Shown in pieces: positions 4,205 through 20,028 of a DNA stretch of 64,000 nucleotides (its first letter is position 1; each line of letters opens with the position of its first letter). The DNA is from Lacticaseibacillus parakribbianus (lineage in GTDB: Bacteria > Bacillota > Bacilli > Lactobacillales > Lactobacillaceae). The notes beneath the pieces were generated by a model. That model worked only from the letters and a program-made list of their open reading frames with translations, made no database searches and was not told where the DNA came from. The translations under genes and the position numbers were made by a program. The DNA is taken from the NCBI RefSeq assembly GCF_025490915.1, contig NZ_JANQBA010000012.1, positions 16,538 to 80,537 of the forward strand, read 5' to 3'.

Positions 4205-4277
4205 TGCAATCGGCTGGATTTGAACCAGCGACATACGTCGTTTAGGCGATGGCTCTACCATACTGAGCTACGATTGC
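4205..4277 (-). tRNA. tRNA-like gene with degenerate anticodon arm
   Basis: The minus strand folds as a tRNA: acceptor GCAATCG/CGATTGC (7 bp, perfect), D-arm GCTC-AGTATGGTA-GAGC, T-arm GCTGG-TTCAAAT-CCAGC (perfect) and discriminator A. No CCA is encoded. The anticodon arm is irregular: the best pairing CATCG/CGACG has one A-C mismatch and leaves a 6-nt loop CCTAAA. The amino acid cannot be assigned; shifted registers would give UAA or CUA. It may be a phage tRNA with unusual anticodon loop or a decaying copy. Confidence 0.6.
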
Positions 4278-16085: not shown

Positions 16086-16319
16086 TTAGGCCTCCCGCTT
16101 GGTGTTAGTTTCCGGTTTAACCGGAGCGTCGGGTAAAAAAATAAGATCTTCATAGCCGACACCCGTAACCTGCTTAATTCGTTCCAGAACCTTGATGTCT
16201 GGATAGGTCTTGCCTCGTTCGTAGTTGCGCACCGTGGTGTCGGTGACGCCGATACGTTTAGCAAACTCGGACTGGGTCAGCCCAACATTAACTCGTGCGG
16301 CTTTCAGTGTGATGCTCAT
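16086..16319 (-). CDS. Cro-like XRE repressor
   Basis: 77 aa from the ATG at 16319 (GAAAGGAGGTGAG upstream). HTH: SITLKAARVNVGLTQSEFAK, RIGVTDTTVRNYERGKTYPD. It is divergent from the CI-type gene with overlapping operators, the standard genetic switch. It would repress CI and commit to the lytic programme. The C-terminal 20 residues (FLPDAPVKPETNTK) are disordered. Confidence 0.85.
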   Translation of the reverse strand: MSITLKAARVNVGLTQSEFAKRIGVTDTTVRNYERGKTYPDIKVLERIKQVTGVGYEDLIFLPDAPVKPETNTKREA

Positions 16320-16347
16320 TGGCTCACCTCCTTTCTCAACACAAACA

Positions 16348-16444
16348 ATCATAATCCGGTTAGACCGGAAATGCAAGAAGTTTTTCGACTTAACCGGAAA
16401 TATTTTCTGCTTTTCCTTGTATTTTTCCGGTACTGGTATATAGT
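16348..16444. promoter_or_regulatory. Divergent cI/cro switch: two promoters with TCCGGT-type operators
   Basis: Minus-strand promoter for the Cro-like gene: TTGCAT (16376-16371), 17 bp, TATGAT (16353-16348). Plus-strand promoter for the CI gene: TTGTAT (16417-16422), 16 bp, TATAGT (16439-16444). TCCGGT-TAG-ACCGGA (16355-16369) is a perfect inverted repeat exactly inside the Cro promoter spacer. Further half-sites are ACCGGA (16393-16398) and TCCGGT (16426-16431), the last one inside the CI promoter spacer. Confidence 0.75.
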
Positions 16445-16466
16445 TACCTATAAAGAGGTGTCCAAT

Positions 16467-17135
16467 ATGTCAGACTTAGGAAATAAAGCAATCTTCGGCA
16501 AGAACCTAACCGAAATGATGAATCAGAGGAAAATGTCGGTGACTGACTTGGCTTCTGCCCTTGGCTTCAGCACCTCAACCGTGTGGGACTGGGCGAACGG
16601 AAAGACCTACCCACGTATTGATAAGATTGAAATGATGGCCAATTATTTTGGCGTTAAGAAGTCAGCACTGGTTGAGCACCACGATAACGGTGTTCCTCTA
16701 CCAATCCACACCTACCCATACATCCCCGCCGCCATCTCTGCTGGTACGCCAACCGAGGTTGAAGCCATCACCCCAGACCAGCTGGAACAGGTCGCCATTC
16801 CAGACGCGGTCATGGGCAAGTGGGCCGGTCACACCGACGTCACGCTCATGCGAGCCAATGGCGATAGCATGAACCGCGTGATTCCGAACGGATCGCTGAT
16901 CGGCGTACGCGGCGTTGACGACCCGGCAGACCTCAAGGACGGTGACATCGTGGTCTTCGACTGTGATGGTGAGTATGCCGTCAAGCGGTTCTTCAATGAC
17001 CGCACGGGCCGCGCGTACATCTTCCAGCCCGACTCAAGTAAGCCTGGGTTCGCACCGATTGTTCGCCGGTACGACGATCCAGACCTCACAAACATCGTCG
17101 GCAAGGTCGTCCTCTACGTGGTCGAACTCGCCTAG
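16467..17135 (+). CDS. CI-type phage repressor with S24 self-cleavage domain
   Basis: 222 aa from the ATG at 16467 (AGAGGTG upstream). N-terminal HTH (residues 10-65: NLTEMMNQRKMSVTDLASAL, GFSTSTVWDWANGKTYPRID). C-terminal LexA/S24 peptidase: cleavage site Ala92-Gly93, nucleophile Ser134 in NGDSMNRVIP and base Lys173 in YAVKRFF. RecA-stimulated autocleavage would trigger induction after DNA damage. It maintains lysogeny by binding the operators upstream. Its stop codon is the first base of the structured RNA element described next. Confidence 0.93.
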   Translation: MSDLGNKAIFGKNLTEMMNQRKMSVTDLASALGFSTSTVWDWANGKTYPRIDKIEMMANYFGVKKSALVEHHDNGVPLPIHTYPYIPAAISAGTPTEVEAITPDQLEQVAIPDAVMGKWAGHTDVTLMRANGDSMNRVIPNGSLIGVRGVDDPADLKDGDIVVFDCDGEYAVKRFFNDRTGRAYIFQPDSSKPGFAPIVRRYDDPDLTNIVGKVVLYVVELA

Positions 17136-17201
17136 CCCACTCCAGCGGCAGGCCCGTGCAAGCCGGGCCGTGTGGCTTACGTCCAGCCCGGATCGACGTA
17201 A
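17135..17201 (+). ncRNA. Structured RNA element, copy 1
   Basis: Predicted fold: P1 GCCCAC (17135-17140) with GTGtGGC (17170-17176); hairpin P2 GGCCCG-TGCAAGC-CGGGCC (17151-17169); hairpin P3 TTACGTC-CAGCCCGGATC-GACGTAA (17177-17201). A second copy at 17608-17675 keeps the single-stranded parts and changes both sides of the helices. It starts at the CI stop and ends 27 bp before the next gene. The family is unknown to me. Confidence 0.6.
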
Positions 17202-17228
17202 AAAGCTGTGGAGTTAGGGGAACATAGT

Positions 17229-17600
17229 ATGAAAGTAACAAAGCTGATTGTGGGTATTCTTCAGATTGTCTTGTCCTTGTTTATTCTGCTTCAGTCTTGT
17301 GCAGTTGGGCTTGGCCACGCCGTCGAAAACAAGACGTCAGATGCTGGCGGCTCAGCGGGCGTATTCGTCGCCATTCTGTTTTTGGCCGCCGGCATCACCT
17401 ACATCGCTACACGCAAAATGGTGAAGCTTGGCGGTGACATTGCTGGTCTCGTTCTGATGGCAATCGCATGGATTTTCGGCATCTCAAACGCTGCCGACTA
17501 CTCTGATCTCGCTATCTGGGGCTGGCTGTCCTTGATCATCGGTGTTGGCTTCTTCGTCTGGCACCTACTGGCAAACCGAAAGGCAGCAAAGGCTGAGTAG
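17229..17600 (+). CDS. Four-helix phage membrane protein in lysogeny module
   Basis: 123 aa from the ATG at 17229; a GGGG stretch 8-11 nt upstream serves as ribosome site. Four membrane helices: KLIVGILQIVLSLFILLQ, AGVFVAILFLAAGITYI, GDIAGLVLMAIAWIFGI, LAIWGWLSLIIGVGFFVW. Similar membrane genes follow the repressor in many Lactobacillus temperate phages; superinfection immunity or exclusion is a reasonable guess, not shown. It is flanked on both sides by copies of the structured RNA element. Confidence 0.7.
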   Translation: MKVTKLIVGILQIVLSLFILLQSCAVGLGHAVENKTSDAGGSAGVFVAILFLAAGITYIATRKMVKLGGDIAGLVLMAIAWIFGISNAADYSDLAIWGWLSLIIGVGFFVWHLLANRKAAKAE

Positions 17601-17607
17601 CTGCTAG

Positions 17608-17675
17608 AAGCCTTCTCTAGCGGCGGACGTGTGCGAGCCACGTCGAAGGCTTATGTCCAGCCCGGATTGACGTTA
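17608..17675 (+). ncRNA. Structured RNA element, copy 2
   Basis: P1 AAGCCTT (17608-17614) with AAGGCTT (17646-17652); P2 GACGTG-TGCGAGC-CACGTC (17626-17644); P3 TTATGTC-CAGCCCGGATT-GACGTTA (17651-17675, one mismatch, one G-U). Compared with copy 1 the stems P1 and P2 are almost entirely replaced by other complementary bases, while the loops TGCRAGC, CAGCCCGGATY and the TCYAGCGGC joiner are kept. Confidence 0.6.
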
Positions 17676-17683
17676 GGCAAAAT

Positions 17684-17703
17684 AAAAAGCCCTCGGTGAG
17701 GGC
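17684..17703 (-). terminator. Minus-strand terminator hairpin before the HEPN-like gene
   Basis: GCCCTC-GGT-GAGGGC (17689-17703); on the minus strand it is followed by TTTTTATTTT. No minus-strand gene ends here, so it may block antisense readthrough. On the plus strand the hairpin also abuts the ribosome site GGGAGG of the next gene. Confidence 0.5.
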
Positions 17704-17715
17704 GGGAGGAAATGC

Positions 17716-18555
17716 ATGATAGAGTATGAAACTATTTGCCCAGAGTGCCTGACTCAAAGCCGAAACTCCAGCAGCGGGCGCATCCAGATTTCCCTAATGA
17801 TGGGGAGTATAACGGATGCCGACTTTGTTGAGGCTAAGTGTCAAAACGGCCACACGATAAACATTTTCCCGCGTGAAGGTAAGTACAACTTCATCTTAGC
17901 TCACGCCTTTAGAGCTTTTCAGTCCAACCAGTTCTACGAAGCCGCTGCATCGGGCTATGCGGCACTTGAAGACTTCATGAAAGTGTATATTCAGGCAAGC
18001 ACTTGGGTAGCAATGAATCAGCCTGAAGATGTGAAGAAGCTCTACGAGGATGTTAGCTCGAACAAACTGCTGATGGGCAACTCTACGCGAATCATTGGAG
18101 CCTATGCCTATCTCTATCAGACGAATACTGGCACCGTTATTACCCCGAGTGAGTTTGAAAAGATGTCGCACATCAGAGACGACATAATTCACGCCGTCAA
18201 ACTACCGAAGAGGAATGATGTTGAAAAGCTGCTAGTGTCAATCTACAAGCACCTCGCGATTGCGTCGATCAGGTGGACTCATTCACCCAAAAAGGGTAAC
18301 CCGCTGCTACAACAATGGATTCCCGACTACAAAATGCAGCTAGCAATTGCATCATTGAAAACATCCGGTATGGCTTCCAAAGATGTACAGGGGAGCATCA
18401 ACCAACTTAGTCAGTCGACCACTCTCTTCTTACCCGAGACGCTCTTTTTCGACAACGTCGATGCGCGTAATTCCGAGATTGAAGCCATTTCTACTGGATA
18501 TAAGGACGCTACTGTCATTGCCAAAATGATTCCAGACCTACAAGCATATGCTTAG
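17716..18555 (+). CDS. Zinc-ribbon/HEPN-like accessory protein
   Basis: 279 aa. The N-terminus has a zinc site: Cys8, Cys11, Cys42 and His46 (ICPEC ... KCQNGH). The centre is helical and includes SHIRDDIIHAVKLPKR; Arg154-x4-His159 fits the R-x4-6-H motif of HEPN-domain RNases, followed by the usual closing helix (DVEKLLVSIYKHLAIA). HEPN proteins occur in abortive-infection and toxin systems and in RNA surveillance. Its location in the lysogeny block between the repressor and integrase is where temperate phages keep anti-phage cargo. GGGAGGAAATGC precedes the ATG. The function is inferred from motif and context. Confidence 0.65.
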   Translation: MIEYETICPECLTQSRNSSSGRIQISLMMGSITDADFVEAKCQNGHTINIFPREGKYNFILAHAFRAFQSNQFYEAAASGYAALEDFMKVYIQASTWVAMNQPEDVKKLYEDVSSNKLLMGNSTRIIGAYAYLYQTNTGTVITPSEFEKMSHIRDDIIHAVKLPKRNDVEKLLVSIYKHLAIASIRWTHSPKKGNPLLQQWIPDYKMQLAIASLKTSGMASKDVQGSINQLSQSTTLFLPETLFFDNVDARNSEIEAISTGYKDATVIAKMIPDLQAYA

Positions 18556-18717
18556 AACCCTCTCGAGTTCATCAAAACTAATTTCTTCACCGACTTCAAG
18601 CCCTCCATCCAGCGGAAGGAGATCAGAACCTGTTGAAATTGTCTCAATAAGCGCTTCGCGTGGCAGTTTGCTCAGATAATCGAGCAGCTGGCCAACATTA
18701 CGGATTTTTTCGTTCAT
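18538..18717 (-). CDS. Small acidic phage protein, 59 aa
   Basis: 59 aa starting MNEKIRNVGQLLDYLSKLPR, then EALIETISTGSDLLPLDGGL and EVGEEISFDELERVL. GGAAAGGTGA precedes the ATG at 18717. It is convergent to the zinc/HEPN-like gene and overlaps its last 18 nt. The N-terminal 'LLDYLSKLP' pattern occurs in small phage proteins of unknown role. It might be an antitoxin-like partner, but only proximity suggests it. Confidence 0.5.
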   Translation of the reverse strand: MNEKIRNVGQLLDYLSKLPREALIETISTGSDLLPLDGGLEVGEEISFDELERVLSICL

Positions 18718-18766
18718 GATGATTCACCTTTCCTAGAATTAGTTGAAATTATATCACCATCATAAC

Positions 18767-18810
18767 ACAAAAACGCCGTCCACTCACCCGGCAAGATGAC
18801 TGTGGACGGC
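18767..18810 (-). terminator. Minus-strand terminator upstream of integrase
   Basis: Perfect 9-bp repeats GCCGTCCAC (18775-18783) and GTGGACGGC (18802-18810) with an 18-nt loop, followed on the minus strand by GTTTTTGTG. It would stop leftward transcription from the host side or from the integrase antisense strand. Confidence 0.6.
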
Positions 18811-18870
18811 AAGCAAACAACACTATCAGTGCGCTCTTTGCGTACTCCAGTATAGCACATGGAGGAAATC

Positions 18871-20028
18871 ATGGCATCAATCGAAAAACGTGGTAAGACG
18901 TACGGCTACCGCATTCGCTACAAGACCGTGGACGGCGTGTGGCGTGAAAAGTCTAAGGGCGGGTTCCGCACGAAGAAACTGGCAGAAGCAGCTGCGGCGG
19001 AAGTCGAGCACGACAAGCGCTCTGGTGCTGACCTGTCCGATGTGACGCTGCTTGCCTACTATGATCGGTGGCTTGCCACCTTCAAGGCTGGTAAGCACTC
19101 ACAAATTACCGAGGCCAGGTACGCTACTATCCGCAAAGCACTGGCGGAGTATTTCGGCAGCGACCAGCCGCTTAAAGAGATAACGCGCACGGCGTGGCAG
19201 ACCTTCATCAACACCTATGCCGCAGGGACCGTCGTGCCGCGCAACGCCAAGCAACCTAAGCCACGGTCGCGTGATACCGTGTCCAAGCTGAACGGCTACA
19301 TCAAGGCTATGTGTGATGATGCTATCGCTGACCGTATTCTGACTGCGAACTTTGCAGCCCGGGTGGTCAACCCTGGCGCCGCCGCCAAAGCAAGTGACTT
19401 GAAGTTCCTTGAGCTTGACGAGTTCTCCGCTCTGCTCGCCTACTGCCGCGAGCACGCCAAGCTGTCGAGTATGTACTTGTATTGCATTGCTGCTGCCATT
19501 CTCACCGGGTGTCGAGCCTCCGAGCTGATTGCGCTCCAGTGGGCCGACGTAGATCTAGACGCTCGCATCATCCACGTCACGAAGTCATGGGATTACGTGT
19601 ACGGCACGGGATTCAAGCCCACTAAGACCCCTTCTGGCGTGCGAGACATCGACATACCGGGTGAGCTGGCGGTGATGCTCCAGAAGCTCCACGGCGAGCA
19701 GGCAGCGGCCAACCTGCGTACCGGCTACCGCGACGAGCTAGACATGGTCTTCCGCAACAATCGCCACCAAGTGCCGAGCGACTACGCGCTGAACCACGGA
19801 CTCAAGCGTGTGGAGGACAAGCTCGGCTTCCCGTCGCCTGTCACCTTCCACGGGCTCCGGCACACCCACGTGAGCTACCTGCTCGCCAAGGGCGTTGACA
19901 TCGCCTATATCTCCAGACGGCTCGGTCACTCGGATATCACGATCACGCTTCGGGTGTACCAGCATTTGTTGAAGGCCCACGAGCAGGAACAAGCACAAGC
20001 GGCGGTAAAAGCACTGTCTGCGCTGTGA
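18871..20028 (+). CDS. int: Tyrosine-type phage integrase
   Basis: 385 aa from the ATG at 18871 (GGAGGA 6 nt upstream, itself inside a longer in-frame ATG). N-terminal arm-binding domain (SIEKRGKTYGYRIRYKTVDG), SAM-like core-binding domain (residues 60-160), and catalytic domain with Arg in LTGCRASELIALQW, HGLRHTHVSY, LGHSDITIT and the Tyr nucleophile in RVYQHL. It catalyses insertion and excision of the prophage. It ends at the prophage right edge. Confidence 0.95.
   Translation: MASIEKRGKTYGYRIRYKTVDGVWREKSKGGFRTKKLAEAAAAEVEHDKRSGADLSDVTLLAYYDRWLATFKAGKHSQITEARYATIRKALAEYFGSDQPLKEITRTAWQTFINTYAAGTVVPRNAKQPKPRSRDTVSKLNGYIKAMCDDAIADRILTANFAARVVNPGAAAKASDLKFLELDEFSALLAYCREHAKLSSMYLYCIAAAILTGCRASELIALQWADVDLDARIIHVTKSWDYVYGTGFKPTKTPSGVRDIDIPGELAVMLQKLHGEQAAANLRTGYRDELDMVFRNNRHQVPSDYALNHGLKRVEDKLGFPSPVTFHGLRHTHVSYLLAKGVDIAYISRRLGHSDITITLRVYQHLLKAHEQEQAQAAVKALSAL

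Follow-up and report, generated by a model that had tools for sequence, protein, structure and literature searches.

Two separable RNA motifs between genes of Lacticaseibacillus phages, with covariation in one helix

The window, a 64,000-nucleotide stretch of the Lacticaseibacillus parakribbianus genome, contains a phage lysogeny module on the plus strand. A CI-type repressor gene (HTH and Peptidase_S24 domains; 16467..17135) is followed by genes for a 123-aa protein of PHROG_9418 (17229..17600) and a 279-aa protein of PHROG_19381 (17716..18555), both families of unknown function, and the module ends with a phage integrase (18859..20028). The 123-aa protein is hydrophobic as read from its sequence, and relatives of this membrane gene were found in phages and prophages. 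Two plus-strand copies of a structured RNA flank it at the positions given by an earlier sequence-only reading, each made up of the motifs here called M1 and M2 (M2 being the hairpin earlier labelled P3).

M1 copy 1 (17133..17177; 57.3 bits, E 2.3e-14 with model R1, in which its own sequence is included) begins on the CI stop codon TAG (17133-17135), as that reading had placed it. Its P1 helix (5' strand 17133-17140, 3' strand 17170-17177) is imperfect (the 3' strand contains an additional T) and encloses the joiner TCCAGCGGC plus A (17141-17150) and the P2 helix (17151-17156/17164-17169) with its loop TGCAAGC (17157-17163). M2 copy 1 (17178..17211; 37.1 bits, E 3.7e-7 with model R2, own sequence again in the model) is a hairpin, ACGTC..CGACGT, with the tail AAAAAGCTG, and the ribosome-binding site of the membrane gene follows. 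The second copy lies behind this gene: M1 copy 2 (17608..17652; R1 63.6 bits, E 2.4e-16, own sequence in the model) starts 7 nt after the stop codon, with P1 at 17608-17615/17645-17652, the joiner TCTAGCGGC plus G at 17616-17625, P2 at 17626-17631/17639-17644 and the loop TGCGAGC at 17632-17638. M2 copy 2 (17652..17685; R2 25.1 bits, E 4.5e-4, own sequence in the model) has a degenerate tail (TTAGGC), followed by a short hairpin and then by the next start codon at 17716. This last hairpin, GCCCTCGGTGAGGGC at 17689-17703, stands directly before the ribosome-binding site of the 279-aa protein gene and, taken on the minus strand, resembles a terminator.

Within the window, a 24-mer of P3 with its tail occurs at these two sites only (at most 3 mismatches; 0 expected in shuffles), and a three-block pattern likewise has two sites in the host genome; near-identical matches to the latter were present in 0 of 300 other family genomes examined. 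A blastn search with 16800-17720 gave no match among plasmids and a single phage record, R3.3, where the match covers the membrane gene.

The sequence-only reading had described P1, P2 and P3 as a single element, and here our results differ: the composite is rejected, each part being found without the other. A GTCCA...GAC hairpin with TAAA behind it stands before the membrane gene in 12 of 14 IMG/VR relatives, and a search of these 14 loci with R1 found P1-P2 in none of them, while a relative from the genus (L054) carries P1-P2 behind the membrane gene without that P3. Because the IMG/VR loci and L054 carry one part alone, we divided the element into M1 (P1-P2) and M2 (P3). P1-P2 without an adjoining P3 is seen in L054, L157 and L163, and P3 without an adjoining P1-P2 in L036-L049, L203, L205 and L206. 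The three-block pattern including P3 matched 33 stretches in viral contigs, with no paired member by eye.

M1 thus defined comprises P1 and P2 in 45 nt, with a 10-nt joiner TCYAGCGGCN, a P2 of 6 bp and the loop TGCRAGC. The pattern TCYAGCGGC-N6-GTGCRAGCC retrieved 30 genome stretches and 8 viral stretches. Six of the genome matches are from Lacticaseibacillus and all six have a 6-bp P2, whereas in the other 24 P2 is at most 5 bp; all eight viral stretches have a 6-bp P2, and they represent seven distinct sequences, two of which (L087 and L093) belong to the Lacticaseibacillus group by their flanks. A looser pattern gave 78 matches (L057-L155) over which P2 length is bimodal: 6 bp in 14, 0-1 bp in 54 and 2-5 bp in 10, the 14 including all eight viral records and all six Lacticaseibacillus stretches. 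This bimodality is evidence that was not picked by pairing. Other P2 statistics lean towards pairing, as the seed members had been required to have a 6-bp P2 and the later ones came from a model in which P2 raises the score, and the invariance of the joiner, the loop and the pair G24-C32 is partly fixed by the search patterns. From a wider-gap pattern with 30 stretches, matches with P2 shorter than 6 bp were taken as chance and L102 was added.

Two alignments were made. The first holds 11 members with a 6-bp P2 and leaves out near copies, the variant L102, and L063, L066 and L084, whose P2 of 4-5 bp was taken as chance. The second holds 31 matches from 32 chosen sources, fitted to the model and nearly gapless; it is without L184 (partial), without a degenerate copy near L160, and without the sub-threshold M1-like stretches adjacent to M2 in L202 and L209. 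The degenerate M1-like hairpin (L160:1201-1245) has the loop TGCAACT and an altered joiner, and stands ahead of a small membrane gene, a canonical M1 following after about 300 nt; a similar stretch is present in L064 on the minus strand.

Paired changes between the two copies had been read as selection for structure. Two copies alone could not prove covariation, and with 31 distinct members the interpretation stands for P2, which passes a phylogeny-aware test; for P1 none of the eight pairs is significant. Four of 861 column pairs reached significance, all in P2. The test was run with our own script in the manner of R-scape, on the 45 consensus columns with insert columns omitted; for the null, the substitutions of each tree branch were re-dealt over columns in 300 simulated alignments. 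P2 is paired in 96.2% of cells and P1 in 70.9%. The 11 members align without gaps, with a covariation score of 0.712 against 0.19 for shuffled and at most 0.224 for slid controls. One helix pair, G24-C32, is G-C in 31 of 31 members, partly fixed by the search pattern. A joiner-loop contact between columns 15 and 29 (G.A in 27, A.G in 2 and A.A in 2 of 31) is suggestive and is not significant in the phylogeny-aware test.

Folded singly, the sequences do not stand out (z between -1.15 and +0.18 for four stretches; -0.92 and -0.78 for the M1 copies), so that the argument depends on comparison. Energies were calculated by nearest-neighbour folding, which allows no pseudoknots, for the 27 gap-free rows of the 31-member alignment, four rows with gaps being left out and insert columns omitted. 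P2 is in the best fold of only 5 of the 27; in 14, many of them near copies, the best fold instead pairs the joiner's invariant GGC with the GCC at the loop end. In some members these two exclusive pairings are near-equal in energy: -16.0 versus -15.6 in copy 2, -14.4 versus -14.1 in L163, and -18.0 versus -18.4 in L180. Since P2 is so seldom the best fold, we read this as a sign either of two states of the RNA or of a P2 fold that is held in place by a tertiary contact or by a partner. In canonical members one base separates the joiner from the 6-bp helix, a spacing compatible with a classical H-type pseudoknot. Candidate joiner-loop contacts would be C17-G26 with G16-C27, or C14-G30 with G13-C31. 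C17-G26 is kept in 31 of 31 members and G16-C27 in 28 of 31, an A16 in L172 and L200 breaking one candidate contact; C14-G30 is kept in 30 of 30 with letters, and G13-C31 in 26 plus 2 with G-U. As these contacts are almost invariant, in part through the search patterns, covariation cannot test them. Where M1 and M2 stand in tandem (window 17170-17205; L065, L168, L202, L209), the 3' strand of M1 ends in GGCT, which by eye could alternatively pair with AGCT in the M2 tail.

M2 is a hairpin, GTCCA..GAC, with the tail TTAAAAGCTG. Its alignment of 21 sequences was collected with a pattern that holds GTCCA, GAC and mostly TAAA, so that the invariant GTC/GAC core is fixed by the collecting pattern and only outer pairs vary; the outer pair changes together (CG, AU, UG, UA). 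The R2 search gave 45 matches, of which the 30 with loci were read: the GTCCA..GAC core is present in 30 of 30, R2 having been trained on it, and a start codon lies 45-53 nt downstream in 23. Twenty-four proteins encoded close behind M2 fall into 14 blastp families; many of these proteins begin with a segment that is hydrophobic or lipoprotein-like by sequence reading, others (L223, L224 and L227) do not.

Both motifs are widespread in the genus. R1 detected M1 in 18 of 30 Lacticaseibacillus genomes (E 0.1), five of which had supplied model sequences, and R2 detected M2 in 23 of 30 (E 0.01). M1 is rare outside the genus: it was found in 6 of 121 family genomes, in 2 of the 40 genera of the family, and in 2 of 299 phylum genomes, with the genome of the window among them. 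The model matched 9 of 9 virus records, which were chosen because M1 is in them, and M1 also occurs in viral records outside the Lacticaseibacillus group, including metagenome viruses. Relatives with the same fold are present in other prophages and P2 covaries above its phylogenetic background, so the sequence-only reading survives the refutation test set with it. A string for one subtype of M1 is contained in 31 named-phage records: 29 are from phages of Lactobacillus or Lacticaseibacillus, among them some double deposits, and the remaining 2 are Porphyromonas records. An M2 string is contained in 53 phage records. Of these, 39 belong to Lactobacillus or Lacticaseibacillus and others, for example, to Streptococcus; another M2 string is in 7 plasmid records.

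With respect to genes, the position of M1 is regular. In 17 of 28 loci it follows the upstream stop codon at a distance of -4 to 12 nt, and in 20 of 28 if three ORFs (L168, L180, L182) are added; in the other 11 loci, counted without the added ORFs, the upstream stop is further away or uncalled. Where an upstream gene was called, it shares the direction of M1 (27 of 27 loci), as does the downstream gene in 26 of 28, though the loci are not independent, L159-L161 being near copies. On the downstream side, M1 or M2 often precedes a start codon by 20-53 nt.

The genes themselves are varied. M1 lies behind CI in the window, L157, L163 and L172, and behind lysogeny-module genes and before int in L166, L173, L177 and L178. 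In the tail operon L164 it stands between Phage_TTP_1 (major tail protein) and Phage_TAC_3 (assembly chaperone), and the Lacticaseibacillus-type record L087 has one M1 in its lysogeny module and another ahead of a gene resembling the L179 tail chaperone. In the metagenome virus L088, M1 shares a region with Sak4-like and replication initiation genes, and in the metagenome virus L092 with a Sak4-like gene (the one type tested there). In L102 it lies 20 nt behind an anti-restriction gene. L175 and L210 carry M2, a small lipoprotein-like gene and then M1 before a PPIase (PrsA-like) gene; in these two (G277 contig 1) the M2-gene-M1 unit stands between a HIT-like-looking gene and the PPIase gene. 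Such M2-gene-M1 brackets enclose unrelated cargo genes.

That the first reading could not match the element to a known family agrees with our searches: no Rfam 15 family was matched at the gathering cut-off in the window or in 13 loci with M1, apart from a tRNA at window position 4205 and two tRNAs in the 13 loci. The tRNA gene of the window (4205-4277, minus strand; Rfam 48.3 bits) has, according to ARAGORN, an anticodon of two bases only. The sub-threshold Rfam matches were to flpD, twister-sister and sR39, all far below their cut-offs, and the twister-sister and flpD identities were rejected on this ground. Among the literature matches listed, no paper treats the M1 or M2 motifs by its title and the start of its abstract. 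Structured RNAs close behind stop codons in operons are familiar as REP-type intercistronic stabilisers; M1 resembles these in being structured and in its location, and differs in having conserved unpaired sequence and, in canonical members, a 6-bp helix of fixed length. GOLLD RNA, whose name refers to lakes and Lactobacillales, shares a link to phages, but is a giant RNA compared with the 45-nt M1. We would class M1 and M2 with a known kind, presumably cis-acting structured phage RNA, in a new form.

What might the two motifs do? An immunity sRNA, one of the roles suggested from the sequence, is not favoured, since other M1 copies belong to a tail operon, neighbour replication genes or precede a PPIase gene; the other two, an mRNA stability or processing element and a protein-binding site, stay as candidates. 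With neighbours so varied, control of one pathway is a poorer fit than a general part in mRNA metabolism. What the loci have in common is where the motifs lie, between co-directional cistrons and close to stop and start codons, rather than any gene, and this suggests a role in cis. We tentatively prefer a reading in which M1 and M2 are cis-acting barrier and leader elements between the cistrons of a shared phage message, while recognising that this falls well short of a firm assignment. Both would act as RNA in cis. M1, with its predicted fold just behind a stop codon, would form a compact barrier to exonucleases and perhaps to ribosomes, whereas M2, just upstream of a ribosome-binding site, would be a 5' leader, shielding the following gene or tuning it, so that the output would be the stability or translation of single cistrons.

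The strongest rival, owing to the two competing pairings, is that M1 (and M2) is a binding site for a protein or small ligand that switches the next gene, the two pairings being its two states. The near-equal energies in some members are consistent with this, as are the G-C at pair 24-32 in every member although it is a helix pair (with the reservation about the search pattern given above) and the frequent distance of 20-53 nt to a start codon. The neighbouring genes are of many unrelated kinds, however, unlike a riboswitch regulon, and we consider a switch doubtful.

Other explanations are less likely than such a switch. That M1 is a small self-cleaving ribozyme separating cistrons would agree with its compactness, its conserved unpaired stretches and its occurrence between phage genes. 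Copy 1 also gives a weak match to twister-sister (RF02681; 17.3 bits, E 0.69), in an alignment that includes the GUGCAAGCC loop, and M1 shares with that ribozyme a G-C-closed hairpin with the loop UGCAAGC. The score is far below the gathering cut-off of 34, and M1 is without the 3' strand of the internal loop, since P2 meets P1 with at most one unpaired base; a ribozyme is thus decidedly unlikely.

We regard as very unlikely the suggestion, made by analogy, that the elements could be nascent-RNA antiterminators riding on RNA polymerase like the put sites of phage HK022. In PMC9378689, putL and putR are described as two similar copies, each of about 70 nt and with two stem-loops, located downstream of early promoters. 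By this description M1 plus M2 is alike in being a phage sequence of about 70 nt with two stem-loops, present in two copies in the window, and the elements do lie inside phage operons. They differ from the put sites as described there in that M1 and M2 are separable and occur apart, and in that they stand behind the CI stop and behind the next gene rather than downstream of early promoters; in phage A2, M2 is about 700 nt behind the annotated cI promoter.

The M2-gene-M1 brackets around unrelated cargo would be expected if the elements were DNA sites, that is, recombination or cassette boundaries for swapping lysogeny-module genes. Against this, the strand is fixed relative to the genes, the spacing to stop and start codons is repeated, a helix covaries while its stems are variable, and M1 is also found in a tail operon and near replication genes, so we give this reading very little credence. 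Least probable of all are ordinary intrinsic terminators: the A2 record does label the M2 hairpin as 'terminator' of cI, but in copy 1 the stem is followed by AAAAAGCTG, and the explanation was rejected after a scan of 16300-18900 gave no plus-strand site resembling a terminator (a G+C-rich stem with a U-run).

The preferred reading of barrier and leader elements can be extended to a bolder proposal, which we think improbable as a whole: M1 may found a class of very small phage RNAs, folded as pseudoknots, by which a bacterial exonuclease (either RNase J or a 3' exonuclease) is halted at the boundary between cistrons. The class would be common to phages of lactic acid bacteria and metagenome phages, M2 would be a bacterial-virus counterpart of coremin, and together they would cut operons into separately lasting messages. 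Coremin, an Xrn1-resistant RNA of plant viruses, has according to PMC10520033 a GUC/GAC stem, a GUUAAA spacer and a loop of the form YGAD or YGNNAD. A GUC/GAC stem and then a GUUAAA-like spacer can also be read in most of the 21 M2 rows, a likeness that the collecting pattern, with GTCCA, GAC and mostly TAAA, would itself favour. The longer loop of M2 breaks the YGAD/YGNNAD rule given there, and the host is bacterial. The second loop base of M2 is A in 21 of 21 rows, where the pattern fixed it, and also in the 30 loci read.

The motifs, which match no Rfam family, mark where lysogeny-module genes begin and end and offer a sequence handle for finding such genes. The small RNA fold, strict in its geometry, is a target for structure determination, and the motifs allow a direct test of how phages set gene-by-gene output from one operon. 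Both already carry other labels in the record of a well-known phage of L. casei, A2, where M2 is called a terminator and a putative xis is drawn through M1. The order in A2 is cI - M2 - ORF22 - M1 - int, and in both A2 and Lrm1 M2 is behind CI and M1 before int. The annotated cI 'terminator' of A2 coincides with the M2 hairpin (L231:1773-1802), and the putative xis ORF (L231:2356-2586) overlaps the end of ORF22 and M1; the conserved RNA may have led to this ORF being annotated in error, although it is a member of PHROG_32683.
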